Source: a virus
Strand: one strand, 5' to 3'
Length of the DNA: 45,413 nt
IMG/VR virus record: IMGVR_UViG_3300050821_007995
Location: 1 to 45,413 of that record
In this document: positions 2,598 to 40,659 of the stretch, one piece after another
Numbering within the stretch: position 1 is the first letter of the stretch
Layout of the letters: each line of letters starts with the position of its first letter
Made by a program: the position numbers and the translations under genes
The notes under the pieces: model-generated
What the model was told of the DNA's origin: nothing
Database searches by the model: none
What the model saw: the letters and a program-made list of their open reading frames with translations, nothing else

Positions 2598-2924
2598 TTA
2601 TCGGCCAGTCGGGCCGGTTGGAAGTGTGCCGCTCGGCGGCATTGGCGTTCCTATTACTACCACTGGTATCCCCGGCGGAGCCGAGCTAGGCGGCGTCGGC
2701 CCAGAGACCGGAGCAGGCGGTGGTAGCGGGGGGAGAACTACCGTTCCTTCCATCTGCGCCCTGAACAGCTGGGCCGACTGATATTTCGCTAGCGCGATTG
2801 CATAGATATCCGTGTCGATTGCGCCTACGGCCGGCCCGATCTGCGCGCCGGCCCCTTGCACGGCAGCCGTAATGCCACAGCCAGAGAGAAGGAGAAGAAC
2901 CATCAGGCCGAAGATAATTTTCAT
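2598..2924 (-). CDS. Proline-rich lipoprotein, o-spanin-like (108 aa)
   Basis: The start is set at the ATG at 2924, which overlaps the TGA of the upstream gene (ATGA). This gives a textbook lipoprotein signal: Lys at position 2, hydrophobic run, then LLLLSGC with the lipidated Cys near residue 16. The mature part has a short helical region and then a long Pro/Gly-rich tail (PPLPPPAPVSGPTPP and PTGPTGR). Lipid anchor plus Pro-rich extended region is typical of outer-membrane spanin subunits. A virion lipoprotein or exclusion protein is an alternative. An in-frame ATG at 2933 is also possible. Confidence 0.7.
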   Translation of the reverse strand: MKIIFGLMVLLLLSGCGITAAVQGAGAQIGPAVGAIDTDIYAIALAKYQSAQLFRAQMEGTVVLPPLPPPAPVSGPTPPSSAPPGIPVVVIGTPMPPSGTLPTGPTGR

Positions 2925-4555
2925 TGCACGCATATCACTGAGAAAGTGTGAGTAGCCATCGTGGCGAGAGAAGCAAAGACCATAGCAGAGGCGGTTAGCG
3001 AGGTGATCGCAAGCTGATCTCCGGCAGTTCCCGGAGTTATGTTACATGTCGGCGCGTATGCCCAAGCTCCGCTTGGGAAGTTCACCTGACAGGAAGTGAC
3101 CGTTCCAGTGCCAACCGTCCCAGAGAATTTATTACTAATGCCACCGATACTTGGTGTGCCTCCGCATGAGGCAACCGTCACGTTGACAAAGTTCTGATTG
3201 TGGAAATCTGGAAAGCTGCCATGTAGGTTGACCAGCCCGACGCTGCCAACCGGATAAGCTCCGTCAAAATATGCGCCTGTGCTATCCGTATCCACGGCAT
3301 ACGGCGTCGCCACGCTGGTGAAGTTTGTGCCAGTTATCCGCGTTGTTGGCGCGCCGAGCACGTGGATCGGGGCAATACTGCCGGAACTTATCGTCACGTT
3401 GACGAATTGCGGCGCCGTTACCGTAACCCCAGTCGGCTTAAACGTTCCGACAGAGCTTGTGCCAATGTAAAGAAGTTGCGGACTGTCTGTGAAGTCTCTA
3501 AACTGCGGCGCGACGATAGCGCCTTGCTGTACGTTCCCGGACAGAACGATGCCATTCGCACTAGTCGCTTCCGCATCAACTAGCACACCAACAATGGACA
3601 CATTTTGAATAATTCCGCCAGCCGTCAGCGGATCGATGAAGAAACCTGTTGGGCAATTAAGGGCGCGACTACCGATAACTTGATAGTTTATTCCAACGCC
3701 GTCATGTGTTGCTGTTGTGTCCGCAGCGTTGAATAGAAAGCCGGCGCCAGTAGTGCAATAGACAGTGTCATTTATCGCTGAGGCGTCCGTTGGACTGTCC
3801 CAGTGATCGAAGCCACCATTTAGCGAATTAGCCGCCACGCTACTTTCGACCAGTGTGTCAGCACTAGCGAGAAACGCTGTGCAGTCGGCCAGCTTGTCGC
3901 AACTTATATTGGAAACGCGGACGAATTGAGCGTTCCGGACGAAGACGCCAATGAGGGAGCCAACTACCGTTCCAGGAACTTTATTCCCATCAATATGGAG
4001 GTCTTTAACTTCTATATGCTTATCCGCGAAGACACTACCATGCTGTGTCGCGGTGACACCGCCGCAGTTTGTGTTAGCGAAAATAGGATCCCACGTAGCG
4101 TTGTCCGACGTAGCGGAGCAGTGTCCGGCTGTGCCGGCTGCATTCCATGTTGCTGAGGGTTGGATAACGCTGGCTGCACCATAACCTGCCAGCGTTTGGT
4201 TACCGCCTGGGCAAAAGTACATTGTACTGCTGACAACGTACGTCTTATTGCTCAGAAGCACATTCTTGCAAGTACTCAGCGCCCGCTGGATGGCTCCAGT
4301 ATCATCCGGCTCCGAAGCGTTTCGGTAGTTGTCGGGTGAGGTAACGCCAGGCGGATAGCCGACCACACCTGGAGGAATGTCTGGAACTATAAGGGCTCGA
4401 CAGAGCGGCGCCGCAGGTACGCCACTTGCCGGGCCAGCCATGACTGAGTTCGGCCCACAAAGGCCGGGGGCGTCAGCCCAGGCCGCGCCTGCAGCTAGGC
4501 TTAGCCAAGCGGCAACGCCGGCCGCTAGGCTAAGACGAAGTCTCGGACTTATCAT
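2921..4555 (-). CDS. Secreted right-handed beta-helix protein, pectate-lyase/tailspike-like (544 aa)
   Basis: ATG at 4555 preceded by AGGGACAGG. Residues 1-27 look like a Sec signal peptide: basic start (SPRLRLS), hydrophobic core, and a cleavage-type AWA-DAP. The mature region has the opening DDTGAIQRALSTCKNVLL, the usual first rung of pectate-lyase-3-type beta helices, followed by many short repeated strands (for example IEVKDLHIDGNK, NVSIVGVLVDAEA). The C-terminal 90 residues (FPSGAWAYAPTCNIT...) form a separate small domain with Cys pairs. Likely a polysaccharide depolymerase. The export signal is unusual for a virion tailspike, which is normally folded in the cytoplasm, so a freely secreted enzyme is possible. 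It lies directly downstream of the small terminase candidate. Confidence 0.8.
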   Translation of the reverse strand: MISPRLRLSLAAGVAAWLSLAAGAAWADAPGLCGPNSVMAGPASGVPAAPLCRALIVPDIPPGVVGYPPGVTSPDNYRNASEPDDTGAIQRALSTCKNVLLSNKTYVVSSTMYFCPGGNQTLAGYGAASVIQPSATWNAAGTAGHCSATSDNATWDPIFANTNCGGVTATQHGSVFADKHIEVKDLHIDGNKVPGTVVGSLIGVFVRNAQFVRVSNISCDKLADCTAFLASADTLVESSVAANSLNGGFDHWDSPTDASAINDTVYCTTGAGFLFNAADTTATHDGVGINYQVIGSRALNCPTGFFIDPLTAGGIIQNVSIVGVLVDAEATSANGIVLSGNVQQGAIVAPQFRDFTDSPQLLYIGTSSVGTFKPTGVTVTAPQFVNVTISSGSIAPIHVLGAPTTRITGTNFTSVATPYAVDTDSTGAYFDGAYPVGSVGLVNLHGSFPDFHNQNFVNVTVASCGGTPSIGGISNKFSGTVGTGTVTSCQVNFPSGAWAYAPTCNITPGTAGDQLAITSLTASAMVFASLATMATHTFSVICVQ

Positions 4556-9343: not shown

Positions 9344-9756
9344 TCGACCTTCTTGACCGGATGATTACTGACGCGAAGACACGTGCATCTCGCGCACAGC
9401 TAGTCAGAGAGGCTGCCCCGCTTTCCCCCCGAGCGGCTGGTTGTGGCCCATCTGGCGAGGGGGAGGGAGGCAAGTCTGGCACCTCCCTCCCCCGCTCTCT
9501 CATCTTACAGACAACCGAAACCTTTTGTACGAACTGCGGCGCGCGCTACCGCGCCCCAGGCTATGCCATCCTAGCAGAGTATGCCTTTAACGAAGTCTCA
9601 ATCTGCCGAACGATGGACGACGTTAGGCGGCAAGAGCGAGATTACCAGCGTGTGCTGATTGAACAAGGCCAGGCCACACATCAATTCTGCCCAAGACTTC
9701 CGCGTGAGTATCGTACGCTTACTGTCCACGCGCCAGCTTGCGAGGCATGCTTCTAA
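9340..9756 (+). CDS. Hypothetical protein with zinc-ribbon-like Cys pairs (138 aa)
   Basis: ATG at 9340 overlaps the preceding stop. After a helical N-terminus (residues 1-27) comes a Gly/Ser/Pro-rich linker encoded by a perfect 12-bp inverted repeat (9459-9493). The rest has CTNCGARYRAP near residue 64, a single Cys further on (TICR-type, at SICRT) and a closing ACEACF. The two CxxC pairs suggest zinc binding. The hairpin in the middle raises the possibility that two units were joined or that expression is controlled inside the gene. No family is recognised. Confidence 0.6.
   Translation: MIDLLDRMITDAKTRASRAQLVREAAPLSPRAAGCGPSGEGEGGKSGTSLPRSLILQTTETFCTNCGARYRAPGYAILAEYAFNEVSICRTMDDVRRQERDYQRVLIEQGQATHQFCPRLPREYRTLTVHAPACEACF
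9459..9493 (+). repeat. Perfect 12-bp GC-rich stem-loop inside an ORF
   Basis: GGGGGAGGGAGG (9459-9470), 11-nt loop, CCTCCCTCCCCC (9482-9493). It is the longest perfect stem noticed by eye and lies in the linker of the gene at 9340-9756. The purine strand also has runs of G. Confidence 0.75.
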
Positions 9757-9763
9757 TAATCGG

Positions 9764-9798
9764 AGAACCCCTCCGATCATCCCGCACCTCGGGGTTCT
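9764..9798 (+). terminator. Stem-loop between early genes
   Basis: AGAACCCC (9764-9771) pairs with GGGGTTCT (9791-9798) around a 19-nt loop. A competing small stem CGGAG/CTCCG (9761-9775) overlaps its 5' arm. It lies just before the ribosome site of the secreted-protein gene at 9819, so it could be a terminator or a switch between two folds. Confidence 0.45.
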
Positions 9799-9818
9799 GG
9801 GGTAGGAGTTTACTTACC

Positions 9819-10001
9819 ATGAATAGGCTTATTGCCATCAGTGCTATCGTTATGTTGTTAGCAATCAGTAACGCAAGCAGCGCCCGTGCCGATTTCTGGT
9901 CCGACTTTGTCGATATGTTCAACGGCTTCGGCGACGGGCTCGGCAACGGCGGAACTAGCAATGGCAACGGCAATGGCAACGGAAACATCACTTTAGGCTA
10001 A
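9819..10001 (+). CDS. Small secreted Gly/Asn-rich protein (60 aa)
   Basis: ATG at 9819 with AGGAG upstream; the frame from 9738 runs through the stem-loop and is rejected. Residues 1-24 form a Sec signal peptide (NRLIAISAIVMLLAISN, then SSARA as the cleavage site). The mature peptide of about 36 residues is DFWSDFVDMFNGFGDGLG followed by repeated Asn-Gly pairs ending NITLG. An aromatic amphipathic start plus a flexible NG-rich tail could act on membranes or in the periplasm. No homologous family is recognised. Confidence 0.7.
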   Translation: MNRLIAISAIVMLLAISNASSARADFWSDFVDMFNGFGDGLGNGGTSNGNGNGNGNITLG

Positions 10002-10404: not shown

Positions 10405-10598
10405 TGTCCGTACGCAGTGAGGCCAGACGGGAATTCCGACGACAGATGCGACACCTCATACACGTGATGCGAGAGAACAGTTGCCATCGGAAGATGCGGC
10501 ACTGCATGTCAGCAGCATTGGAAACGCCCGGGCCCGTAGAGATCGATCCCGAGGAGTTCGATGCAGCGAACCGCTTACCAAGGAGAAAAGACCAATGA
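10404..10598 (+). CDS. Small basic hypothetical protein (64 aa)
   Basis: ATG at 10404 overlaps the previous stop by 1 nt. The Arg-rich helix SVRSEARREFRRQMRHLI is followed by another basic helix with Cys (SCHRKMRHCMSAALE) and an acidic end. It is coupled to the next gene by ATGA. The charge suggests nucleic acid binding; no family is recognised. Confidence 0.6.
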   Translation: MSVRSEARREFRRQMRHLIHVMRENSCHRKMRHCMSAALETPGPVEIDPEEFDAANRLPRRKDQ

Positions 10599-10849
10599 GT
10601 GATGCCCTACGAACAATGCTAATGGCTTCAGCCTTGGCCGAAGCCGAACCGGACACTGACCCAGCAGTGCTTCTGGCACAAGTCCAGGCAAAGATACGAC
10701 AAGGCGTTGAGCCGACGGATGATGAGATGAGGCAAGTTATCCTCGCCGCCCGCGCAGGCCGGCGCAGTGCCGCCACTGGCCAGAGGAAGAGCAGGGCTAC
10801 CGCTCCAAGTATCAGCGTTGACACGCTATTCAAGCGGCCAGGGGTATGA
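10595..10849 (+). CDS. Hypothetical protein (84 aa)
   Basis: ATG at 10595 with AAGGAGAAAAG upstream; the longer frame from 10481 is rejected because it overlaps the previous gene. An acidic, Ala-rich N-terminal half (ALAEAEPDTDPAVLLAQV, then VEPTDDEMRQVILAARAG) is followed by a basic tail (RRSAATGQRKSRATA). The phrase P-T-D-E-x-R-x-V-I-L-x-A-R-x-G-R-R-S is common in small phage proteins of unknown function. Confidence 0.7.
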   Translation: MSDALRTMLMASALAEAEPDTDPAVLLAQVQAKIRQGVEPTDDEMRQVILAARAGRRSAATGQRKSRATAPSISVDTLFKRPGV

Positions 10850-11013
10850 AAACAGAGCGTCAGCGTTGCCTTGACATCGTACAATGTGGCATAGACAGAC
10901 ACAAACAATCTCTAAGAAGTGAATACATTGATGCAAGAGGCCGTATTAACCATTGGTACGCCATTAGTGCGCTTATGAAAGTGTATGACAAGATTAACTC
11001 GGAGGGCATATAA
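10846..11013 (+). CDS. Small hypothetical protein (55 aa)
   Basis: ATG at 10846 overlaps the previous stop (ATGA) and its TAA overlaps the next ATG (TAATG). Begins KTERQRCLDIVQCGIDRHK and continues as mixed helices (RINHWYAISALMKVYDKIN). Accepted on coupling at both ends; function unknown. Confidence 0.6.
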   Translation: MKTERQRCLDIVQCGIDRHKQSLRSEYIDARGRINHWYAISALMKVYDKINSEGI

Positions 11014-18901: not shown

Positions 18902-19888
18902 TCATTGAGTTACCAGTGTGCCCACACAGGTTTGCGTCGCCCAGTTTGCACACATCCATATATTTATACTCTGAATATATGTATCAGTATTATTGGCTTG
19001 ATTTATAGCTCCATTACTCCATACAAAGATTTGATGTAGTACTGTGAGATCACTTGGGTTAGTCAACGTGAAACTCCAGCAGCCAATTTTCTTCCCATCT
19101 ACATAATAACATTTCGCGAAATCTGTCGTATTGCTCGTAAACAGCACACCGAGAGTATGGTACGCTGTCATGTCTAGACGTAGATTGGCGGGCGGACTAG
19201 TAAATAGGCCGTTTGAAATCTGGTAGTTGACCCACTCTATAGTCCCATCCCCGTATATCCAGCCGGTGCCGTCGTTATTATTAGCGTATATCTCCGCGAA
19301 GTCAGGCTCCAGCCAATTACCGGGCTGACTTGTCGCGGCAAGATCGCCGCCGGCTATAGTGCCGGTAATGTTAGTGTTTTGCGAAAATGAGGCGGCGCTT
19401 ATCCGGAAATTAATCTCCATATACATCTGGGGTCCAAGCCAGTTGGTGGCGCTGCCTTGGAAACAATGGTCAGGCCAACAAAGACAGAGAGCCGCGGTGC
19501 TAGAGGTGTCACCGGCATATACTGGGTCTCCGGGGTGAACCTGCCAGTGCAGAACCTGCTTCCCAATCGAGGCATCTGTTTCCATGATAAGGTCGGCGCA
19601 CGGGGCACCCTGCTGGAAACCGTAATAACTATAAACCCAGTGATTGCCCGATGTCGGCCCGCCGCAGCCATCGACCCAGTTTGCAATATTGGAATATGCC
19701 GGTTGCGAGAAGTCGGTGTTAAGCGCGTGTGTCGTGAACCCGGCAGCCTGCGCCGGGGCTGGCAGCCCTCCGACGACGGACTGCGTGATGGTAACCGGGA
19801 TGTCAACCGAAGGGCTCGTGCCAGACAACGCGTAAGCCGGGCCGCTTAAGACGAGGAGGAATACCAATAACAAGTGTTTCATAATCAT
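18902..19888 (-). CDS. Secreted GH16-like glucanase/lectin-fold protein (328 aa)
   Basis: ATG at 19888 overlaps the upstream stop (ATGA). Residues 1-22 are a signal peptide (KHLLLVFLLVLSGPAYAL). Then comes SVDIPVTITQ, shared with the next gene upstream. The rest has a concanavalin-like layout of glycoside hydrolase family 16: MYMEINFRIS, WLEPDFAEIYANN with an E-x-D-x-x-E catalytic-type motif, YHTLGVLFTSN and YYVDGKKIGCW. Several Cys suggest disulfides, consistent with export. It is the last gene of the leftward arm. Likely a polysaccharide-cleaving or -binding enzyme released to the cell exterior; virion association would be unusual with a Sec signal. Confidence 0.75.
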   Translation of the reverse strand: MIMKHLLLVFLLVLSGPAYALSGTSPSVDIPVTITQSVVGGLPAPAQAAGFTTHALNTDFSQPAYSNIANWVDGCGGPTSGNHWVYSYYGFQQGAPCADLIMETDASIGKQVLHWQVHPGDPVYAGDTSSTAALCLCWPDHCFQGSATNWLGPQMYMEINFRISAASFSQNTNITGTIAGGDLAATSQPGNWLEPDFAEIYANNNDGTGWIYGDGTIEWVNYQISNGLFTSPPANLRLDMTAYHTLGVLFTSNTTDFAKCYYVDGKKIGCWSFTLTNPSDLTVLHQIFVWSNGAINQANNTDTYIQSINIWMCANWATQTCVGTLVTQ

Positions 19889-21891
19889 GGAACCGCCATA
19901 TTGCCAATTGTGCCGGTGCAGCCGGGCGGCGGCGGATAGGTCTGCGTGATCCCAGCCGCCGCCCGAGTAGCGAATAGCTGATCCCCGACCTCGGTAACCT
20001 CTGACGGGTCGGGGTAACCGCTAGCAGTAGTCAAGTGAAACGAGGAGTAAGGATAAGACTGCCCTGCAAGCCCTCCCACAAAGATGTTGGTATTCCACAC
20101 ATTCGGTGGATTGGTAAAGAACGTCGGGGCAGGGTTCAGATTGGGACCAATGTAAGCAAACCAGTGTGTCCGCGAAGACTCACCATCTTGAATTACAATG
20201 TTATTGTTAAGATTAAGAGAGAAGATGGCGTTCCCACCCCCTGGCAAGGTCTGCGGCGGGCCGCCATTCTCATCATCCATCGCCCAGCCTATTTGGTTCT
20301 GCTGCGGCGATCCCGGGCCCTTGACAATGGTGTTATTGTCAATGTGACACTCCCGCCCCTCCGGGCAGTCGATCTCCTCACTGTCCACATAGTAAGGGTC
20401 CTGCGAGCCTATGAACAAGTTACACGTGAAGTGGTTTACAAAGCCGCGCGACTTCGCGCCGTGCCCAAACATCGCTTGCTCTGAAAACGTATGGTTCCAA
20501 TCCAGTGTATTGGTATTGTCACCGAAGTATGCGTTATGCTGCGGCCCATTGGGCCCGCCGCATCTCGCGAAATGTAAGTTCTGCACAACATAGTTCACGA
20601 ACGGCTGCGAGTTGCCGCTGAGGATGCAGTCCTCGCCGTCGTGGAGATAGTCATTCCGCATCACGGCATTACCACTGGCTAGGTAGAAGCAGGCAGTAGG
20701 GCCATTTGTGGCCCAGTCAGAGCATTCGAGGTTGTCGAATATTCCGACATCAGTAGCGCCGCCCCAGTAGACGAACGTCCCTTTGCCATTGCACAGAAGG
20801 GTTGAGCCGCCCATGAAGTGGGCAAAGTTACCACCTACCCCTTTGATCCACAGATGCTGTGGGAGATGCCATATACGATCGCTAGTCGGCGCGTTGAACG
20901 GGCTAGCGTTTCCAAACTGAGAGCAGTCATAATAGGCCCCGGCTTGTATAGTGATTAGCGTATTGTCAGTGATACCATTGATATTGGCATTACTGAGCCC
21001 GATTAGGGCGAGGCTCAGCTCAGTGTACTGACACCCGGAAGGGCAAACGGTTATGGTCTGATTTGGGGTGAATGGTTCGGTGAGCGTATTCATAGCTGTC
21101 GGCACGACGGGAGATAGCGTCGCCGGCGTGATGACTGTCGGAGTAACCGCTGTCGCCTTCGACCCACCTTGATTATTCGGCACAAGGACGACTTGTAGAA
21201 ATTGGTAGTTATCACTCGGCGGTGCCGGAACCGTCAAGGCCACGGTCCCGTTATGCACGCCAATGGCAGGCATGGTCCCACTGACCCACTGGTAATCGAG
21301 ACCCTGGACATTCCCATTACTATAAGCGCCTCGCGCGTTACCGATCTGAACATAATCAGTGCCCATTGTATTAGGCGTATTCCTGACCGTAACGTTGACT
21401 ACTGACCCCGGCGCCGGGTTATAATTGTCCACCGTCAGGAACAGTGTCGTGGTATCCGCTGGGTCTACACCCTGGATGGCCATTGTCGTACTAGCCGGTG
21501 AGCCAATCACGCCCGACTGAGTAAGTGTGACTACGATCGTATAGTTGCCTGCAGGGACGTCAGTGCTACCAACCGTGACGGCGCCGGTAGCAGAGTTGAT
21601 CGCAAACTTGCTAGCGTCGGTACCCCCAGTGATCGCCCAGCTTCCAGTAAAGGCAGGCACAAGCGGAAAGATCGTCGCCGCGATTTTACCCACCGGCGTG
21701 TTGGCAGACCCAGCTCCGGCGAGGAACTGGAAGAGGTTGCCAGCTGGCTGAACCACTGGAATTAGCGTTTGGGGAAGCGCTGCGCCGGTTGAGATAGTGA
21801 CCGGAATGTCAACCGGAGAACTCGTCCCCATCAGCGCATACGCCGCTCCACTCGACGCTATAAGCATCGCAATGATGTATAAGTGTCTCAT
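19885..21891 (-). CDS. Secreted beta-helix protein with Ig/cadherin-like N-terminus (668 aa)
   Basis: ATG at 21891 overlaps the upstream stop (ATGA). Signal peptide RHLYIIAMLIASSGAAYA, followed by SPVDIPVTIS, then a cadherin-like module (GKIAATIFPLVPAFTGSW, FAINSATGAVTVGSTDVPAG) and a second Ig-like region. From about residue 270 a parallel beta-helix begins (QTITVCPSGCQYTELSLALI) with repeated NxxxxDGED-type turns and Asn/Cys-rich rungs, as in pectate lyases and tailspikes. A short C-terminal domain follows. Probable secreted polysaccharide-degrading or adhesive protein, related in layout to the protein at 2921-4555. Confidence 0.75.
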   Translation of the reverse strand: MRHLYIIAMLIASSGAAYALMGTSSPVDIPVTISTGAALPQTLIPVVQPAGNLFQFLAGAGSANTPVGKIAATIFPLVPAFTGSWAITGGTDASKFAINSATGAVTVGSTDVPAGNYTIVVTLTQSGVIGSPASTTMAIQGVDPADTTTLFLTVDNYNPAPGSVVNVTVRNTPNTMGTDYVQIGNARGAYSNGNVQGLDYQWVSGTMPAIGVHNGTVALTVPAPPSDNYQFLQVVLVPNNQGGSKATAVTPTVITPATLSPVVPTAMNTLTEPFTPNQTITVCPSGCQYTELSLALIGLSNANINGITDNTLITIQAGAYYDCSQFGNASPFNAPTSDRIWHLPQHLWIKGVGGNFAHFMGGSTLLCNGKGTFVYWGGATDVGIFDNLECSDWATNGPTACFYLASGNAVMRNDYLHDGEDCILSGNSQPFVNYVVQNLHFARCGGPNGPQHNAYFGDNTNTLDWNHTFSEQAMFGHGAKSRGFVNHFTCNLFIGSQDPYYVDSEEIDCPEGRECHIDNNTIVKGPGSPQQNQIGWAMDDENGGPPQTLPGGGNAIFSLNLNNNIVIQDGESSRTHWFAYIGPNLNPAPTFFTNPPNVWNTNIFVGGLAGQSYPYSSFHLTTASGYPDPSEVTEVGDQLFATRAAAGITQTYPPPPGCTGTIGNMAVP

Positions 21892-22514
21892 GGTGCAGCA
21901 CTTGTTGCAAACCCGCTTCCGTTCCACACAAACCACACGGCGCCGGTATTCTTAACATACAGCTGCCCACCATGTGCGACTTCCATCAGGATGGCACAGC
22001 CTTGAAACGCACCGTTCAGGTAAACGACGTAGTCAGATGTATTGCAGATAGACCCGAGCGTCCGACTGCCAACGATCGGACCCCATGACCACACCCCGTT
22101 GCTTGTCGCCAAGGGTGCTCCATTCGGAGCTGACGACATAACCAAATCTGCAGTCGGGTCGAGCTGAACCGCTTCCATTGTAACGTGCTCAGTGGTGCCG
22201 CCCGCGTTTCCAACGCCGCGGCCGTTCGACGCAAGGACCAAATTGCTACCGCTGACCGAGTAAGTATCGGCGTCGTAGTTCGGCGAGACGAAGATATAGG
22301 CTCCCGTAAACGCCGACCCGTCACTCCACACGCCCTGTAATGCCGTGACATTGCCGCTAGTGCCATCGGATGACGGTATAGTCGGCTGAGCCGGCGTTAC
22401 ATTAAGCGTCAATGCCCGATGTGTCACAGTGATTGGTACAGAGACACTGCCAGTCCCGGGCGGGAAGGCAGCATAGGCGGCGCCGATCAGGAATAGAGCT
22501 AGTAGAGCTTTCAT
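21888..22514 (-). CDS. Secreted Ig-like protein (208 aa)
   Basis: ATG at 22514 overlaps the upstream stop (ATGA). Signal peptide KALLALFLIGAAYAAFPPG, then SVSVPITVTHRALTLNVTP and the Ig/cadherin-like phrase AQPTIPSSDGTSGNVTALQ with DGSAFTGAYIFVSP. This module is shared with the genes at 22511 and 40321. The C-terminal half has another small beta domain (SDYVVYLNGAFQGCAILME and LYVKNTGAVWFVWNG), a pattern often found at the ends of phage fibre or cell-surface proteins. Function unknown, probably exported binding protein. Confidence 0.7.
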   Translation of the reverse strand: MKALLALFLIGAAYAAFPPGTGSVSVPITVTHRALTLNVTPAQPTIPSSDGTSGNVTALQGVWSDGSAFTGAYIFVSPNYDADTYSVSGSNLVLASNGRGVGNAGGTTEHVTMEAVQLDPTADLVMSSAPNGAPLATSNGVWSWGPIVGSRTLGSICNTSDYVVYLNGAFQGCAILMEVAHGGQLYVKNTGAVWFVWNGSGFATSAAP

Positions 22515-23197
22515 TGTGTCGCTATCACCTGAATAGTGTCAACTAGTGTCTGCGCATTAGGCCCAACACCAGGCCCGCTTGGATTGACGATAATGTTGTT
22601 GCCCGAAAGGGCAAAGATCGAACTTGGATTGTTGCTAAGCGTCAGACTTCCAGTCCAAGGCGTGCCGTCATCCATGACGACCGAGACGGTCGCCACAACC
22701 GTTCCGGCTGGCGTCGTATCGGGTATATTTGGCATCGCCGGATTAACCGTTACGATCGGGAGCGGGTCACGACTGAATGCTTGTATACTCCACTTAAGTG
22801 GGAGTATTGGTCCCACAGAATTCCGCATCCCGGTCGGCTGGGCGGAAAGAAGCAAATACGCTACATATGTCCACACGCCTGGGGTTCCTACAGCACCATA
22901 CTGCGCTGTATTCAATGGCAATGTAGCCTGCGCGTGGTTCTGAAACCAACCATTGACCTGCGTGCCGCCAGTCAGCGTAAGCGCTGTCCATGTCTGCCCG
23001 TTTGTAGATACGTAAGCTGTATTCCATACATACTGTGTGTTCACGCCTTCGGCGCCGAAGGTAAGCACAAGGCTCGCGCCTTCGGCTATGCTTAGATGCA
23101 ATGGCTGCGGAGCAGTCGCGAAGACATTCCACGGCGCGGCAAATGCGGCAGGAACCGCAGCCGGCCCTACAGGCCAATATGCAAACTGAGCGGTCAC
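22511..23197 (-). CDS. Ig-like structural protein (228 aa)
   Basis: GTG at 23197 overlaps the upstream stop (GTGA). No signal peptide. The first 130 residues are beta-rich (ASLVLTFGAEGVNTQYVW, TNGQTWTALTLTGGTQVNG, WTYVAYLLLSAQ). The C-terminal 90 residues are one Ig/cadherin-like module (IVTVNPAMPNIPDTTPAGTV, MDDGTPWTGSLTLS). It lies between the ejection proteins and the exported proteins. Probably a virion appendage or an anchor for them; inferred from the shared module. Confidence 0.7.
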   Translation of the reverse strand: MTAQFAYWPVGPAAVPAAFAAPWNVFATAPQPLHLSIAEGASLVLTFGAEGVNTQYVWNTAYVSTNGQTWTALTLTGGTQVNGWFQNHAQATLPLNTAQYGAVGTPGVWTYVAYLLLSAQPTGMRNSVGPILPLKWSIQAFSRDPLPIVTVNPAMPNIPDTTPAGTVVATVSVVMDDGTPWTGSLTLSNNPSSIFALSGNNIIVNPSGPGVGPNAQTLVDTIQVIATQ

Positions 23198-25926
23198 TGA
23201 AGCATCTTAACGTAGCTCTCTGGATCTGACACTGCTCCCCCCACAACTCGTCCGGTTACATTGAACCTCAAAGCGTATTGTCGCATGATCTTAGCCGTTT
23301 GCTCGTCCAACTCGCGACTGTCCGGCCGCAGCTTCGCTGCCCGCCGAAGCAATGGCTCAACGTTCTGCATCTTAAATATTCGGCTGCCGAAATTATAAAG
23401 GCTATGAGCTATGAAGCCACTTGCGGCAAGCGTAGCGCCTTCAGTAACATGTCCAGTAATTATGCGCTCTAGCCCTACAATGCCAAGATAACCGCTCCAG
23501 CCAAAGATACGGCCATGTGCATGGCTTGCCACCCGGCCGGTAAGGCCGTCCTCGGTAAGCCTTTGGCTTATCTTCGCGAAGCCTTCGAGCTTGGCGTATT
23601 CGTCTCGCGTTAGCAGGTGCCGGAGCGCCGCTCCGTGGTCGAGGATATATTGGTGTATCTTCGTTGGATCAAACAGCGGTCCCTTAGCATTCGGCCCAGC
23701 CTCCATGAGCATCTGATGCATGACATCATTTGTAATAGCCTTCTGGGCCTCCGGCCCAGAGACAATCCTCTTTAAACCTTCGATTTCCTCATAGTCTCCC
23801 CTTTTAATAACATCCTTCAACCATCCGTAGAAGTGCGCCTGACTGAACTCAGCAGCTCCTCGAGCTGTTTGCCAGTCGCTTCCAAATCGTTCCTGCATGC
23901 CACGTTTGACAGCACCGAATGCACCTCTAAGAGGTCCAACAGGGGTAAACTTTCCACCAGCGTCGCGAACTGCTGCCCCAGCTTCACCTTCCATTCCTCG
24001 TATAAGACGTCGGATAGCTCCTTTTTTGGCCGCGTCACCGGCCTGTCGGTGGACGGTTTGTAAGTATTGTATACCTTTAGCATAGTTAGCTCCAGTGATT
24101 GGACGCTCGACATACGGCGCCGGCGCCACTGGCGGCTTGTCACCCTTGGCGATCGCCCGGTTCATATGAGCCTGGATAAGTGTCGGACCAGCATTAGTCC
24201 CCGCTTTAGCCTTAATCTTATCCCGCCACTCAGTCATTGCCTTCTGAAACTTATCATCAGCAACCTTAGCGGCGTCCCTTCGGGCTTCCTCAGCATGCAC
24301 CCCCATTATCTTTAGTGCCTGCTCAGAAATCCCATGGATCGCCGGCGTCCCCTTCTCTTCTTCCACCGCCTGCCGAGCTTGCGCCGCAAGCTGTTGCGAT
24401 AGCAGCTGTGCCTTCTCCACGCTCGCCCGCATCTCCGCATCTTGCTTGCCAAGCGTGTCAAGGACCGCATCCTTGACCTTGCTTACATTCGGGCCAAGGT
24501 TTTGTGCGGCGTCGGCCAGCTCCTTTATAAAGGTCTTCTGCGCCCCTTCATCTACGATATGCCGTAGCGTCCACGCCGCAGCCTTGGCGAAGGGGAGACC
24601 AAGTGCTCCGCCAAAGAGAGCGCCTATTGGCGCTTCCCACAGTCGATCGTTTGGGTCGGCATTTGGATTGAATTGAAGACCACTAGCCGCTGCGCCACCA
24701 GCCGCGCCACGGGCGATTAGTGGAACCTTGGCAGCAAGCGCTCCCACCTGTGGGATAAGAGCCTTCGCTCCAGCTGTGACAAGCCCGCCTGCTCCCATAA
24801 TCCCGGCTGTCATGCCAAATACTTGACCGGCGAAGCCGACGTACGGGTGAGCGTCGGCCGCACCAGCATACCGCTCATCAAGCTTATTCTTCCAGTCCGT
24901 CATCTTCTGCGCCTGCTCCGGCGCGACTTGCTCAAGCACAGCCTGAGCGGCGCCGAACGGAACATTTAACAGCTCCTTCGCCGCACCCGCTGCGAACGCA
25001 TTATAGGCTCCCATGAAGCCTTCTTCATCCTCCGGGGCTTCGCCATATGGTGTAGAAGGATCAGGCACACTGGCCGGCGTCCCCTGCGGCCCAGGCGAAC
25101 CATCACTCGGATGCTTAAATGTGCTCCATATGTCATGAAGGTCTGAATTCGTCAGCGCTCCCTTTGACGCCACAAAGCGCCGGCCCGGACTATCCAGGTT
25201 CGAATGTCCAAGTACACCATCGATATACTTGTGTACTTGTTTCGCTAACTCATCGTCTGGCCTGCCCTTCGCTATCCAATCATCGATCTTCGCCGGCCCA
25301 GCAACATATCCACCGAGCGCATCCTCCCAATTTCCATATTTCTCATGCAGCTGCGAGAGCCGTTTCTCTCCCAGCTCCCGACTGATATTCCCATCAGTCT
25401 TATACGCATCGTCCTTCGCTCCCATCTCCCTAGCTGTAGCTTCCTGCAGTCCCATAAGGCCATAGGCCCGCCCAGACTTAGTCTCCGGCCCAACGGCTAA
25501 CGGGTTACCGTGGCTCTCAACCCATTGCACACCGGCAGAGACAAGTCCAAGGTCCTCCTTCCCGCCAATCCGGCGCTTCTGTTCCTGTACAGGCGGCGCC
25601 TTCGGCGTCTCTCGCGCTTGCGGGCCATAATCCTTCGCTTGTTGCTCGTGTAATTGTTTCGCATACGCCGTAGCTTGCTCTGGCGACCCAAATTTCCCTA
25701 AATGCTGACCAGATTGATGATATTGATCTATAGCTTCTTTTTCAGACAGAATACGGCTGCCATCAGCCGCGACAGTCGGAATGAGAACTTCTTTTCCATC
25801 CTCATTAAAAGACATCGACCGGACAGTGCTGTATGAGCCATCCGGGTTGTTAACCACTGGACGCTTCTTAAGATCGATATTTCCCGCGTCTGGCGTCCAT
25901 AGTGCGTTTAGGTCTATTTCAGCCAC
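23194..25926 (-). CDS. Internal virion/ejection protein with lytic transglycosylase domain (910 aa)
   Basis: GTG at 25926, 1 nt after the upstream stop. After about 120 residues with a repeated phrase (NPDGSYSTVRSMSFNEDGKE, common in phage internal proteins), residues about 130-230 are an SLT-type transglycosylase: GVQWVESHGNPLAVGP (catalytic Glu) and GRAYGLMGLQEATA, then GGYVAGP. The remaining 650 residues are Ala-rich helices with Gly-rich hydrophobic stretches (AGQVFGMTAGIMGAGGLV) suited to membrane insertion. It corresponds to the large ejected proteins of podoviruses that dig through peptidoglycan and form the DNA channel. Homology to a specific phage protein is not claimed. Confidence 0.85.
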   Translation of the reverse strand: MAEIDLNALWTPDAGNIDLKKRPVVNNPDGSYSTVRSMSFNEDGKEVLIPTVAADGSRILSEKEAIDQYHQSGQHLGKFGSPEQATAYAKQLHEQQAKDYGPQARETPKAPPVQEQKRRIGGKEDLGLVSAGVQWVESHGNPLAVGPETKSGRAYGLMGLQEATAREMGAKDDAYKTDGNISRELGEKRLSQLHEKYGNWEDALGGYVAGPAKIDDWIAKGRPDDELAKQVHKYIDGVLGHSNLDSPGRRFVASKGALTNSDLHDIWSTFKHPSDGSPGPQGTPASVPDPSTPYGEAPEDEEGFMGAYNAFAAGAAKELLNVPFGAAQAVLEQVAPEQAQKMTDWKNKLDERYAGAADAHPYVGFAGQVFGMTAGIMGAGGLVTAGAKALIPQVGALAAKVPLIARGAAGGAAASGLQFNPNADPNDRLWEAPIGALFGGALGLPFAKAAAWTLRHIVDEGAQKTFIKELADAAQNLGPNVSKVKDAVLDTLGKQDAEMRASVEKAQLLSQQLAAQARQAVEEEKGTPAIHGISEQALKIMGVHAEEARRDAAKVADDKFQKAMTEWRDKIKAKAGTNAGPTLIQAHMNRAIAKGDKPPVAPAPYVERPITGANYAKGIQYLQTVHRQAGDAAKKGAIRRLIRGMEGEAGAAVRDAGGKFTPVGPLRGAFGAVKRGMQERFGSDWQTARGAAEFSQAHFYGWLKDVIKRGDYEEIEGLKRIVSGPEAQKAITNDVMHQMLMEAGPNAKGPLFDPTKIHQYILDHGAALRHLLTRDEYAKLEGFAKISQRLTEDGLTGRVASHAHGRIFGWSGYLGIVGLERIITGHVTEGATLAASGFIAHSLYNFGSRIFKMQNVEPLLRRAAKLRPDSRELDEQTAKIMRQYALRFNVTGRVVGGAVSDPESYVKMLQ

Positions 25927-28335: not shown

Positions 28336-28511
28336 TAGTCAACAACCCCAATGATCGAATTAACGAATTCCACTGCCTCCTCACGAGTGCTGAAGTGTAA
28401 AGTCACAGACCTCTCCTCCTGATCGTCTAGGACTATATGAGCCTCTAAAGCAGCCAGTAGTCTTTCCATCTTCATCCGTCGCCGATGCTCTTTCAATTCA
28501 TCGTTTATCAT
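28335..28511 (-). CDS. Small hypothetical protein (58 aa)
   Basis: ATG at 28511 overlaps the upstream stop (ATGA) and the TAA overlaps the next ATG (TAATG). A charged helix (NDELKEHRRRMKMERLLAA) is followed by a strand (RSVTLHFSTREEAVEFVNSI). The second half is a strand-helix unit often found in small phage proteins. Function unknown; it lies within the ejection-protein block. Confidence 0.65.
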   Translation of the reverse strand: MINDELKEHRRRMKMERLLAALEAHIVLDDQEERSVTLHFSTREEAVEFVNSIIGVVD

Positions 28512-29014
28512 GAGGCAACTCCATTTCCAGACTTATGGCCAAATAGTGCGTCTTTGGAGATCGCAAAGATATGAAGATCTCGAAGACCTTCATTGGTCAC
28601 GATTGCGCGTGTTAACGTGCCTTCCTGTTTCATGCCGATATGTCTGGCTGCAAGAAGCGCCAGTCGGTTGTCCGACGGAACACCTGCCCATACCTTCAGC
28701 ATCCCTCGTTGGAATATCTGCGACAGCGCGAAGAGTGTCATTGCTTTTGCTATCTTCCCTCGGAAACCTTCACGAAACGCTAGATGCATCTCTGCTCCTA
28801 TGCTTGTCCGGCGCATGAACTGAACATAGCCGATGATCTGGCCACGAAAGGTCGCAGCGAATGTTGCCGTCTGAGGATGATATAGCTCCTGCGTGAAATC
28901 TACTTGTTCCGGCTGGGGAAATAGTCGGTCATGCGTCGCCCAATAGATCTCTGGCCGCGCCATGAACTGACACATGGCCTGCATGTCATAACGCTCGCTA
29001 ATGTTATATGTCAT
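28508..29014 (-). CDS. GNAT-fold protein, internal virion type (168 aa)
   Basis: ATG at 29014, 2 nt after the upstream stop. Pattern of a GNAT acetyltransferase: strand FAATFRGQIIGYVQFMRR, helix region REGFRGKIAKAMTLFALS, and the closing LKVWAGVPSDNRLALLAARHIGMK with GTLTRAI. In short-tailed phages a GNAT-fold protein commonly lies between nozzle and ejection genes. Whether it acetylates anything is unknown; the acetyl-CoA loop here is not a clear consensus, so a structural role is as likely. Confidence 0.75.
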   Translation of the reverse strand: MTYNISERYDMQAMCQFMARPEIYWATHDRLFPQPEQVDFTQELYHPQTATFAATFRGQIIGYVQFMRRTSIGAEMHLAFREGFRGKIAKAMTLFALSQIFQRGMLKVWAGVPSDNRLALLAARHIGMKQEGTLTRAIVTNEGLRDLHIFAISKDALFGHKSGNGVAS

Positions 29015-38946: not shown

Positions 38947-39092
38947 GAGCATATCTCCGTGGTACATTCAACCATTGGCGTGATCTTATTGTGGAAGTAA
39001 AAACATATACCGCATAGGATTAGCTCACCAATACAAAAAGGCTGTGGATGTTCACATAATTCTAAACAGTGCAAATGGTCCCGCTCTATCAC
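38943..39092 (-). CDS. Cys-rich small protein between ATP-grasp and portal genes (49 aa)
   Basis: GTG at 39092 overlaps the stop of the ATP-grasp gene (GTGA) and its TGA overlaps the portal GTG (GTGA). The product has seven Cys in 49 residues, arranged as HCLELCEHPQPFC, then LCGICFYFH and a last CTTEIC. CxxxC and CxxC pairs point to zinc binding. Coupled at both ends; function unknown. Confidence 0.6.
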   Translation of the reverse strand: MIERDHLHCLELCEHPQPFCIGELILCGICFYFHNKITPMVECTTEICS

Positions 39093-40318
39093 GTCAACCA
39101 TCCCCAACCTCGCAGACTATCTATTGCCCCGGGCACTCGATCTCCAATATCGTTTCTGTACTGAAGCCCGTTCGTGATAATCTTCTCCAAGAGGCGATAG
39201 ACTTTCTTTTGTCCGAGACGCAGATCAGTACTGCGCGCCGTTGCCTTAAGGATAATGTTATCCCCAGCTGCGCAGAAATACCTATCGCCTTCTCGATACA
39301 CGTCTGTGAGGAACAGATGCGGTAGTGTCTTCTCGTCAATTCCAAGAACCGGCTCCCCAGCTTCGCTATGATCGGGTTTGCGAAATGGCCAAGGTGGCAC
39401 GCTGGTGCGTACGGCGATGTTATAACCACTGGCCATTGGCATGGTTCGCAGAGAGCCTGAAGCCGTCTCGAATAGAAGGTCGCCAAGTGGCTCCTCCAGG
39501 CCCTCTGCAAGAGCCTCGACTGCGTCGTAGCCCATCCGGCCTGTAGCCTCAAGGGCATACGCGCCGCTTTCATTCACAATGCAATTGATGTCAAACGGGC
39601 CACGGTAGCCTGTCATCTTTAGGAAAGGCGAGATTTTTTCCACTGTCGCTTTAGTGAGGCGGTTGCTGTCCGCCGTAATGACAACGTTGCCCATGCAGCC
39701 CGTCTGCGGTCCAAGTCCTCCGGCGAGGAAGCGTTTCTCCTCAAAAGTGTGGTTATACGGCGTGGCGAAAGAACTGCCATTGAACCAACCTTCTGTTGAC
39801 ACTTCGATACCCTCAACTATCCGTTGGACGATAAGCGAACAATTTGGGGTCTTTCCAATACAGCGATCCCAAAGCTCCTGTTCCTTAACGACAATAGTCT
39901 TACTTGTGTCCTTATTGCCGCATGGCTTAATAACCCACCCGGAACGCCAAGGGCCCGGGAGTTCCACGCTACGAGGCGAAGGAAAGGCCAGCGTTTCTGG
40001 CACCTTAACACCGGCCCTTTTGAATAACTCCATCCCGGTCTGTCGGTCCAACTCAACACGATCCACATACTCATTCGCCCCGATGTAGGGTACGCCGCGG
40101 AAGTCTCGGCTCAGTTTCCCCATGCCAACCATGTCAGTAATGACCAGATCAGAAGAGCCCACATGCTTATGCCAATCGCTAACGCGAGGAACAATTCCTT
40201 TAAGTGACCGGGCATATCGCGTGTCTCTGACGAAAAGTTTGACATCGTTGCCCTCACTAACCAGTCGGTGTGCGACGCCGAGGGCATCGCCTTCTTTGCT
40301 AATAATAAGAACACGCAC
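39089..40318 (-). CDS. PurD-like ATP-grasp ligase (409 aa)
   Basis: GTG at 40318, 2 nt after the stop of the previous gene; the frame upstream to 40393 is out of context. Rossmann-like start RVLIISKEGDALGVAHRLV, then GWVIKPCGNKDTSKTIVV (ATP-grasp Lys), SLIVQRIVEGIEVSTEGWFN, and GGLGPQTGCMGNVV, which parallels the GPNTGGMG loop of phosphoribosylamine-glycine ligase (PurD). The last catalytic segment reads YALEATGRMGYDAVEAL, where PurD usually has E-x-N-x-R-x-G-D. So the fold and loop are kept while a metal-binding Asn is changed. It lies among packaging and head genes, not with nucleotide metabolism. Substrate unknown: a base, peptide or capsid modification is possible. Confidence 0.8.
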   Translation of the reverse strand: MRVLIISKEGDALGVAHRLVSEGNDVKLFVRDTRYARSLKGIVPRVSDWHKHVGSSDLVITDMVGMGKLSRDFRGVPYIGANEYVDRVELDRQTGMELFKRAGVKVPETLAFPSPRSVELPGPWRSGWVIKPCGNKDTSKTIVVKEQELWDRCIGKTPNCSLIVQRIVEGIEVSTEGWFNGSSFATPYNHTFEEKRFLAGGLGPQTGCMGNVVITADSNRLTKATVEKISPFLKMTGYRGPFDINCIVNESGAYALEATGRMGYDAVEALAEGLEEPLGDLLFETASGSLRTMPMASGYNIAVRTSVPPWPFRKPDHSEAGEPVLGIDEKTLPHLFLTDVYREGDRYFCAAGDNIILKATARSTDLRLGQKKVYRLLEKIITNGLQYRNDIGDRVPGAIDSLRGWGWLT

Positions 40319-40320
40319 AC

Positions 40321-40659
40321 TTATTCCGTAGCGGTGAGTGTCAGTGTAGGTGTGGCGGCGCCAGGCGCCATCGCACCAACGTTTATGTCCCAAATATTGC
40401 TTGTGCCTTCACGGAAAAGGATAAACTCACCAGCTGTCGTTTGAGCAGATATCACAAGCGTCCCAGTATACGGCGAGCCGTCTGAGTTAGTTACGGTGGC
40501 TTTGGCGATATTCGTGCCGGGCGTGGCTGTGTCTGGTATAGTGGGCGCCGCAGGTGTGACAGTAATTACCGGTATGTGGGCATGAGTGACAGTAATAGTA
40601 ACAGTGTCGTTGATCGCAATCACGGCAGTTGCTCCTTGTTTTATGATAGTTAGGTCCAT
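40321..40659 (-). CDS. Ig/cadherin-like domain protein (112 aa)
   Basis: ATG at 40659. Begins DLTIIKQGATAVIAINDTVT, then ITVTHAHIPVITVTPAAPTI followed by PDTATPGTNIAKATVTNSDG and PYTGTLVISAQ. This single beta-sandwich module has the same consensus as modules in the proteins at 21888-22514 and 22511-23197. No signal peptide. Probably a capsid or tail surface decoration. Confidence 0.7.
   Translation of the reverse strand: MDLTIIKQGATAVIAINDTVTITVTHAHIPVITVTPAAPTIPDTATPGTNIAKATVTNSDGSPYTGTLVISAQTTAGEFILFREGTSNIWDINVGAMAPGAATPTLTLTATE

Follow-up and report, generated by a model that had tools for sequence, protein, structure and literature searches.

The window analyzed here is the 45,413-bp virus record IMGVR_UViG_3300050821_007995 of IMG/VR, taken at its full length. 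Its late operon ends with a block of three consecutive minus-strand genes whose products each begin with a predicted Sec signal peptide, and a fourth gene of this kind lies at 2921-4555. We interpret the four products as spike- or depolymerase-type proteins that are exported by Sec and signal peptidase I, mature in the periplasm, and are released at lysis, and we assign a probability of roughly 0.6 to this interpretation. The genes and their N-terminal elements are as follows.

18902-19888, minus strand: exported protein 3 ("GH16-like"), 328 aa, 9 Cys in the mature chain, NW[LI]EPDxxE motif
19829-19888, minus strand: Sec signal peptide of exported protein 3, MIMKHLLLVFLLVLSGPAYA, followed by LSG
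19784-19828, minus strand: post-signal module of exported protein 3, LSGTSPSVDIPVTIT
19885-21891, minus strand: exported protein 2 ("beta-helix"), 668 aa, 12 Cys in the mature chain
21835-21891, minus strand: Sec signal peptide of exported protein 2, MRHLYIIAMLIASSGAAYA, followed by LMG
21790-21834, minus strand: post-signal module of exported protein 2, LMGTSSPVDIPVTIS
21888-22514, minus strand: exported protein 1 (immunoglobulin-like, Ig-like), 208 aa, with one Ig-like repeat of a kind also found in 22511-23197 and 40321-40659
22470-22514, minus strand: Sec signal peptide of exported protein 1, MKALLALFLIGAAYA, followed by AFP
22422-22448, minus strand: weaker copy of the post-signal module (SVSVPITVT) in exported protein 1
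2921-4555, minus strand: exported protein 4, 544 aa, AGP..CRxL repeat, 14 Cys, between the small and large terminase genes on the circular map
4475-4555, minus strand: signal peptide of exported protein 4, 27 aa, ending in AAGAAWA before DAPG

The block had been listed as the open reading frames (ORFs) 18902-19888, 19885-21936, and 21888-22514. All three genes (22514 to 18902) are joined by ATGA overlaps, which support the gene starts. For the beta-helix gene, we chose ATG 21891 instead of the listed GTG 21936 because this ATG overlaps the upstream stop codon as ATGA.

Signal peptides were called with a purpose-made rule and not with SignalP. The rule looks for the marks of Sec and signal peptidase I substrates, namely a basic n-region ahead of a hydrophobic core and, at −3 and −1, small residues. 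All three are present in each block protein, whose n-region is short and whose cleavage site is of the A-x-A type. The score of the N-terminus was reached by 0/3000 shuffles for the GH16-like protein, by 0.2% for the Ig-like protein, and by 1.5% for the beta-helix protein. Applied to 2786 spurious ORFs, the rule gave 18 calls (0.65%); six annotated phage genomes, with 288 ORFs in all, gave 6. With such low background rates, three signals in a row are far beyond chance. Three consecutive late proteins with Sec signals ending in A-x-A-type sites had been proposed by the initial annotation, and our calls and shuffles confirm them at that place. The signal it had also assigned to 2921-4555 is weak by our rule (score 24.8; 5.8% of shuffles, p 0.058) and is backed by homology that starts at the +1 residue.

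A natural swap of signals is seen in the 63.8-kb contig IMGVR_UViG_3300021168_000030 (G001, with loci L010-L012), which belongs to a phage unrelated to the window. G001 has homologues of three of the four exported proteins, each with a different, unrelated signal peptide. The beta-helix homologue (L012:11776-13827) is 89% identical over residues 41-668, and DNA homology between the two phages is limited to this gene, in a single 1904-bp block of 84%. Its N-terminus is unlike that of the window protein, yet it is another signal peptide, MRWWSKCAVFASLLFMALPASA followed by AVW. The GH16-like homologue (L012:2700-3677) has 46% identity and its own signal. The homologue of 2921-4555 (L011:14466-15800) shares a 41-residue N-terminal stretch that begins at the predicted +1 residue, with DAPGLC in the window and DNPGVC in G001 (score 101, 0/5000 shuffles), and the signal regions are not alike (p=0.80). 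In Sec substrates, the signal is separate and replaceable and the mature part is retained; the unrelated signals on the homologous G001 chains show this pattern. Because unrelated phages hold a signal on homologous mature proteins although the signal sequence has been replaced, the signals look like genuine signals of the cleavable Sec type, and their maintenance by selection is supported. Export of the window proteins, taken alone, is predicted with high confidence.

A search of viral contigs gave no more relatives of 2921-4555 or of the Ig-like protein apart from the same virus, two scans of bacterial genome contigs gave no homologues, and neither the GH16-like nor the beta-helix protein had a homologue in the phage collection. 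A search of the signal-less ORFs of all loci for the AGP..CRxL repeat was likewise negative.

Wrong start codons or chance hydrophobic N-termini could mimic such a pattern, and the listed GTG start of the beta-helix ORF was indeed wrong. Against such an artefact stand the false-call rate, the ATGA coupling, and the independent signals on homologues in two phages. In addition, the signal-bearing protein p64 of the cultured phage Mx8, described below, holds no alternative start codon in its first 40 codons. We consider an artefact hardly credible.

The cysteine content of the mature chains also fits export. In the window, signal-bearing mature late proteins contain 2.22% Cys and other late proteins 0.53% (p=1.6e-9); in G001, the values are 1.85% and 0.46% (p=1.8e-8). 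An excess of even Cys counts is a mark of disulfide-bonded exported proteins (PMC7678975). We counted parity over all loci gathered, using signal-bearing chains that contain Cys and, as controls, signal-less proteins with at least 2 Cys. The count is even in 31/32 signal-bearing chains and in 232/406 signal-less proteins (57%; p=9e-7). The window antisense ORF 10456-10908 is omitted from this count; with it, the value is 31/33. By homology cluster, 21 of 22 have all-even counts. Between the two beta-helix homologues, an insert, CNTAPTC, makes a difference of exactly two Cys. The even parity is a disulfide signature as found in disulfide-bonded exported proteins.

Spike and fibre proteins are usually taken as cytoplasmic products that are built into the particle. 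From this, the initial annotation had argued that the signal-bearing proteins may be secreted enzymes instead of tailspikes, an argument that their relatives do not support as it stands. About eight signal-bearing late proteins are found in G001 and five or six in the sister phage G045. In G001, one of them ends in an S74 fibre chaperone (Peptidase_S74, Pfam E 8e-8), another is identified by NF048002 as a GTA-type spike base (43.7 bits; cut-off 28), and others match tail-fibre PHROGs. Further relatives were gathered by their capsid protein. NF048002 is over its cut-off in G001, G004, and G033, with L012:667-978 and L022:8952-9287 among the matches. The spike base has a signal in G001 and none in L033, and the two align from about residue 4 of the mature and signal-less chains. 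L019, L025, and L078 have signal-bearing late proteins of tail-fibre families. L022 and L080 have signal-bearing arabinofuranosidase-like proteins with twin-arginine-type signals, over the Pfam cut-off. These PF09206 proteins (within L022:8952-10879 and L080:10554-13296) each come immediately after a small signal-bearing protein, which is the spike base in L022. L019 has a signal-bearing pectate-lyase-like protein with PF12708 slightly below the cut-off. The G045 tailspike that matches PF13229 is signal-less.

In p64 of Mx8 and p14 of Mx9, both cultured Myxococcus phages, a signal ending in ASA before TRN stands directly before a canonical tailspike N-terminal domain. The residues after this signal align with the extreme N-terminus of tail proteins that lack a signal, from BUCT555 (MPRNGSGTY...) and ppBjS10J-1. 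Because Mx8/Mx9 and the G001 spike base carry signals before virion-type proteins, export is, as judged from these alignments, compatible with membership in the spike/fibre class.

p64 and Mx9_p14 adjoin an antirepressor gene and are not visibly within a late structural block. This position would suit receptor masking or superinfection exclusion, in which exported receptor-binding domains occupy or destroy receptors so that progeny and competitors avoid the dying cell; some signal-bearing relatives are also fibre-like. Exclusion proteins, however, are usually small and early, and the window and G001 genes are large and lie in the late operon among structural genes. We therefore consider this function unlikely for the window proteins.

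One further signal-bearing protein of G045 (L118:7131-7904), encoded between portal and scaffold, ends in VPEPSSLALIGGALIGMGLWYRRRQ, by eye a PEP-CTERM-like sorting tail. A PEP-CTERM regular expression run over the late genes gave chance matches only.

Right after the cleavage site, the GH16-like and beta-helix proteins of the window share the motif LxGTSxxVDIPVTI (p=0.0005). A weaker form of it occurs in the Ig-like protein (p=0.006 and 0.018). The copies differ by several synonymous changes, many of them between exported proteins 2 and 3, and the peptide is unchanged. Hence, the modules are not a recent duplication. The two G001 homologues share WGRG and then a proline run (p=0.003, partly plain proline composition). 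Such similarity is found within one phage, and between phages, there were 0 significant pairs. The short N-terminal module (GTSxxVDIPVTI in the window, WGRG...PPPP in G001) is thus phage-specific, and the large C-terminal part is swapped between phages. In tail fibres, N-termini are seldom replaced and C-termini often, and the N-terminus binds the tail hub (PMC10386132). As the same division is seen here, as in tailspikes, the module is most simply read as a docking peptide, either to the virion or to an exported spike base. Docking of the mature proteins to the virion is plausible for the same reason.

The position of the block is that of tail-fibre genes, which come after internal virion protein genes (PMC10386132). 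The block genes fill this slot behind the gene of the ejection protein, to which translational coupling links them. The two genes upstream of the block are as follows.

22511-23197, minus strand: coupled upstream gene, 228 aa, signal-less, with a C-terminal Ig-like repeat as in exported protein 1
23194-25926, minus strand: internal virion (ejection-type) protein with an SLT transglycosylase domain (PF01464, E 7e-12), immediately upstream of the block

The record has an exact direct terminal repeat of 60 bp and is therefore probably a complete genome. The 37-kb contig IMGVR_UViG_3300020580_000032 is the same virus (99.99%). The late operon runs on the minus strand from 5114 to 1, across the junction, and then from 45413 to 18902. 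Its order is small terminase (5114), junction, large terminase, portal, and major capsid protein, followed by a gp10-like virion protein, a GNAT-like protein, the 910-aa SLT-domain internal virion protein, and the three-gene block.

If the module docks, virion morphogenesis could be split across the inner membrane. Capsid and tail would form in the cytoplasm. Disulfide-bonded spikes and fibres would be exported and mature in the periplasm; only at lysis would they attach to the particle, using the N-terminus that signal peptidase has uncovered. In the gene transfer agent RcGTA, the N-terminus of the spike base binds the capsid, and the head fibre plugs into the spike-base pentamer with its residues 2-10 (Ile/Leu repeats) (PMC7296036). 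A short exposed N-terminal peptide therefore suffices for docking. We consider the split morphogenesis possible, though rather doubtful. The same structure could also mean that the hydrophobic N-termini are themselves docking peptides and not signals. This is very improbable, as the basic n-regions, the A-x-A sites, and the twin-arginine-type variants in L022 and L080 fit export, as do the homology from the mature N-terminus and the Cys parity. Moreover, the spike base itself (L012:667-978) carries a signal.

The enzymatic identity of the window proteins is putative. The three block proteins gave no match of note against Pfam, PHROG, and NCBIfam. Among the specific searches of the window, PF00722 (GH16) and PF13229 gave nothing at E<=10, no other beta-helix model matched, and no matches were found to tail PHROGs, to the GTA-type spike base NF048002, or to anti-phage defence systems in PADLOC. 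For GH16 membership, Pfam, NCBIfam, PDB sequence and profile searches, PF00722, and hhalign against Bacillus subtilis lichenase were all negative. An ExDxxE motif is present as NW[LI]EPDxxE in both homologues of the GH16-like protein; it is short and weak alone. Of the enzyme and fold names in the initial annotation, the GH16-like one thus keeps this motif as its basis and is unproven, and the family searches gave no match for the beta-helix one. A match of the beta-helix protein to Tako8 (PDB, E 9e-8) was dropped, since no stretch passed alone and the match was gone with a profile.

These results bear on the idea of a phage "secretome" in which soluble proteins that degrade or bind polysaccharide never enter the virion and remove the capsule or biofilm surrounding the producer cell. 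The same export evidence would apply to it, relatives carry arabinofuranosidase or pectate-lyase-like domains after the signal, and a depolymerase that is hardly attached to its particle can be of benefit, as TspA of RcGTA shows (PMC13420450). On the other side, some signal-bearing relatives are spike-base or fibre proteins in which no enzyme domain is evident, and the phage-specific module suggests a docking partner. The enzyme activity of the window proteins, as said, is putative. We regard a purely free set of proteins as a tentative alternative. What stands of the "secretome" of the initial annotation is that the signals look real. The pattern moreover exceeds four proteins, and the mature chains show paired Cys; the class is not purely enzymes and includes spike/fibre proteins.

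For the preferred interpretation, Sec-exported spike- or depolymerase-type proteins, the following course of events is conceivable. The infected cell would export the proteins by Sec and signal peptidase I. Oxidative folding would take place in the periplasm, where the proteins may build up late in infection. They would be freed with the progeny at lysis, or sooner if the host possesses a terminal secretion system. The released proteins may then bind or cut surface polysaccharide, which would help progeny to leave the producer cell or to reach the next host. Several points weigh against this interpretation. Its support is drawn from sequence, with signals called by our own rule. The sequence does not reveal a route by which large proteins could pass the outer membrane ahead of lysis. 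None of the three block proteins matches a known enzyme or virion family, and the sole odd-count chain among the 32 is the GH16-like protein of the window with its 9 Cys. Finally, the trait is accessory, as many relatives in the same capsid families lack signal-bearing late proteins.

Among known systems, the tailspikes or fibres of podoviruses (BUCT555 QQM14856, ppBjS10J-1 WAX24466) occupy the same slot after internal virion proteins and have a constant N-terminus and exchanged C-terminal domains. They have no signal, whereas the proteins described here combine a signal with Cys-rich mature chains; those of the window match no tail PHROG. The RcGTA head spikes (Rcc01079 as base, Rcc01080 as fibre) are similar in arrangement to L012:667-978 and L022:8952-9287, where a larger signal-bearing protein follows the NF048002 base. 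A signal peptide is not mentioned in the RcGTA papers searched; it is present in these relatives, and NF048002 finds no match in the window. The RcGTA tailspike TspA, which is detachable and degrades biofilm, is a spike-type polysaccharide depolymerase that acts off the particle, and its authors suggest that surplus soluble enzyme is released at lysis (PMC13420450). No signal peptide is mentioned for TspA, and its likeness to the window proteins is not based on homology. Mx8 p64 and Mx9_p14 likewise have the signal directly before the tailspike N-terminal domain and differ in the shorter fibre and the neighbouring antirepressor gene. No functional study of these two proteins was found in the papers searched. 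Likewise, the literature on phage secretomes or exported tail fibres gave no direct precedent, with subscription journals mostly outside the coverage.

The signals on three linked window proteins and on tail-fibre/spike proteins of relatives suggest that some phages may send part of their host-recognition or slime-digesting equipment through the secretion machinery of the host. If so, phages can use disulfide-stabilised enzymes, release soluble depolymerases, and maybe add spikes after lysis. According to a 2026 preprint, phages encode, to the knowledge of its authors, no soluble depolymerases dedicated to the biofilm matrix (PMC13420450). The window genes are candidates for such enzymes and make this statement testable. 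Mx8 with its host offers a cultured system for the question.

Some neighbouring genes were noted as well. An ATP-grasp-looking protein (MRVLIISKEGDALGVAHRL...; family assigned by eye) is encoded between large terminase and portal in the window (39089-40393) and in G045 (L118:2826-4229), without a PHROG match. In the window (28508-29014), in G001 (L012:7348-7944), in G045, in OQ709411 (Mx9_p87), and in the Manatee Spring phage MW202489 (14110-14523), the gene after the head-closure/stabilisation gene is acetyltransferase-like. Its late-operon position is conserved, and a structural role is not obvious. In the early region, a small ORF at 9738-10001 (plus strand, with an ATG internal to the listed ORF) has a signal peptide, MNRLIAISAIVMLLAISNASSARADFWSDF...; G001 likewise has small signal-bearing ORFs (L010:1306-1581 and L011:560-790), and these are candidate exclusion peptides. 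A lipoprotein-type ORF with an LSGC lipobox at 2598-2933 (minus strand) lies near the transglycosylase-like ORF 1820-2167 and is a possible outer-membrane spanin.

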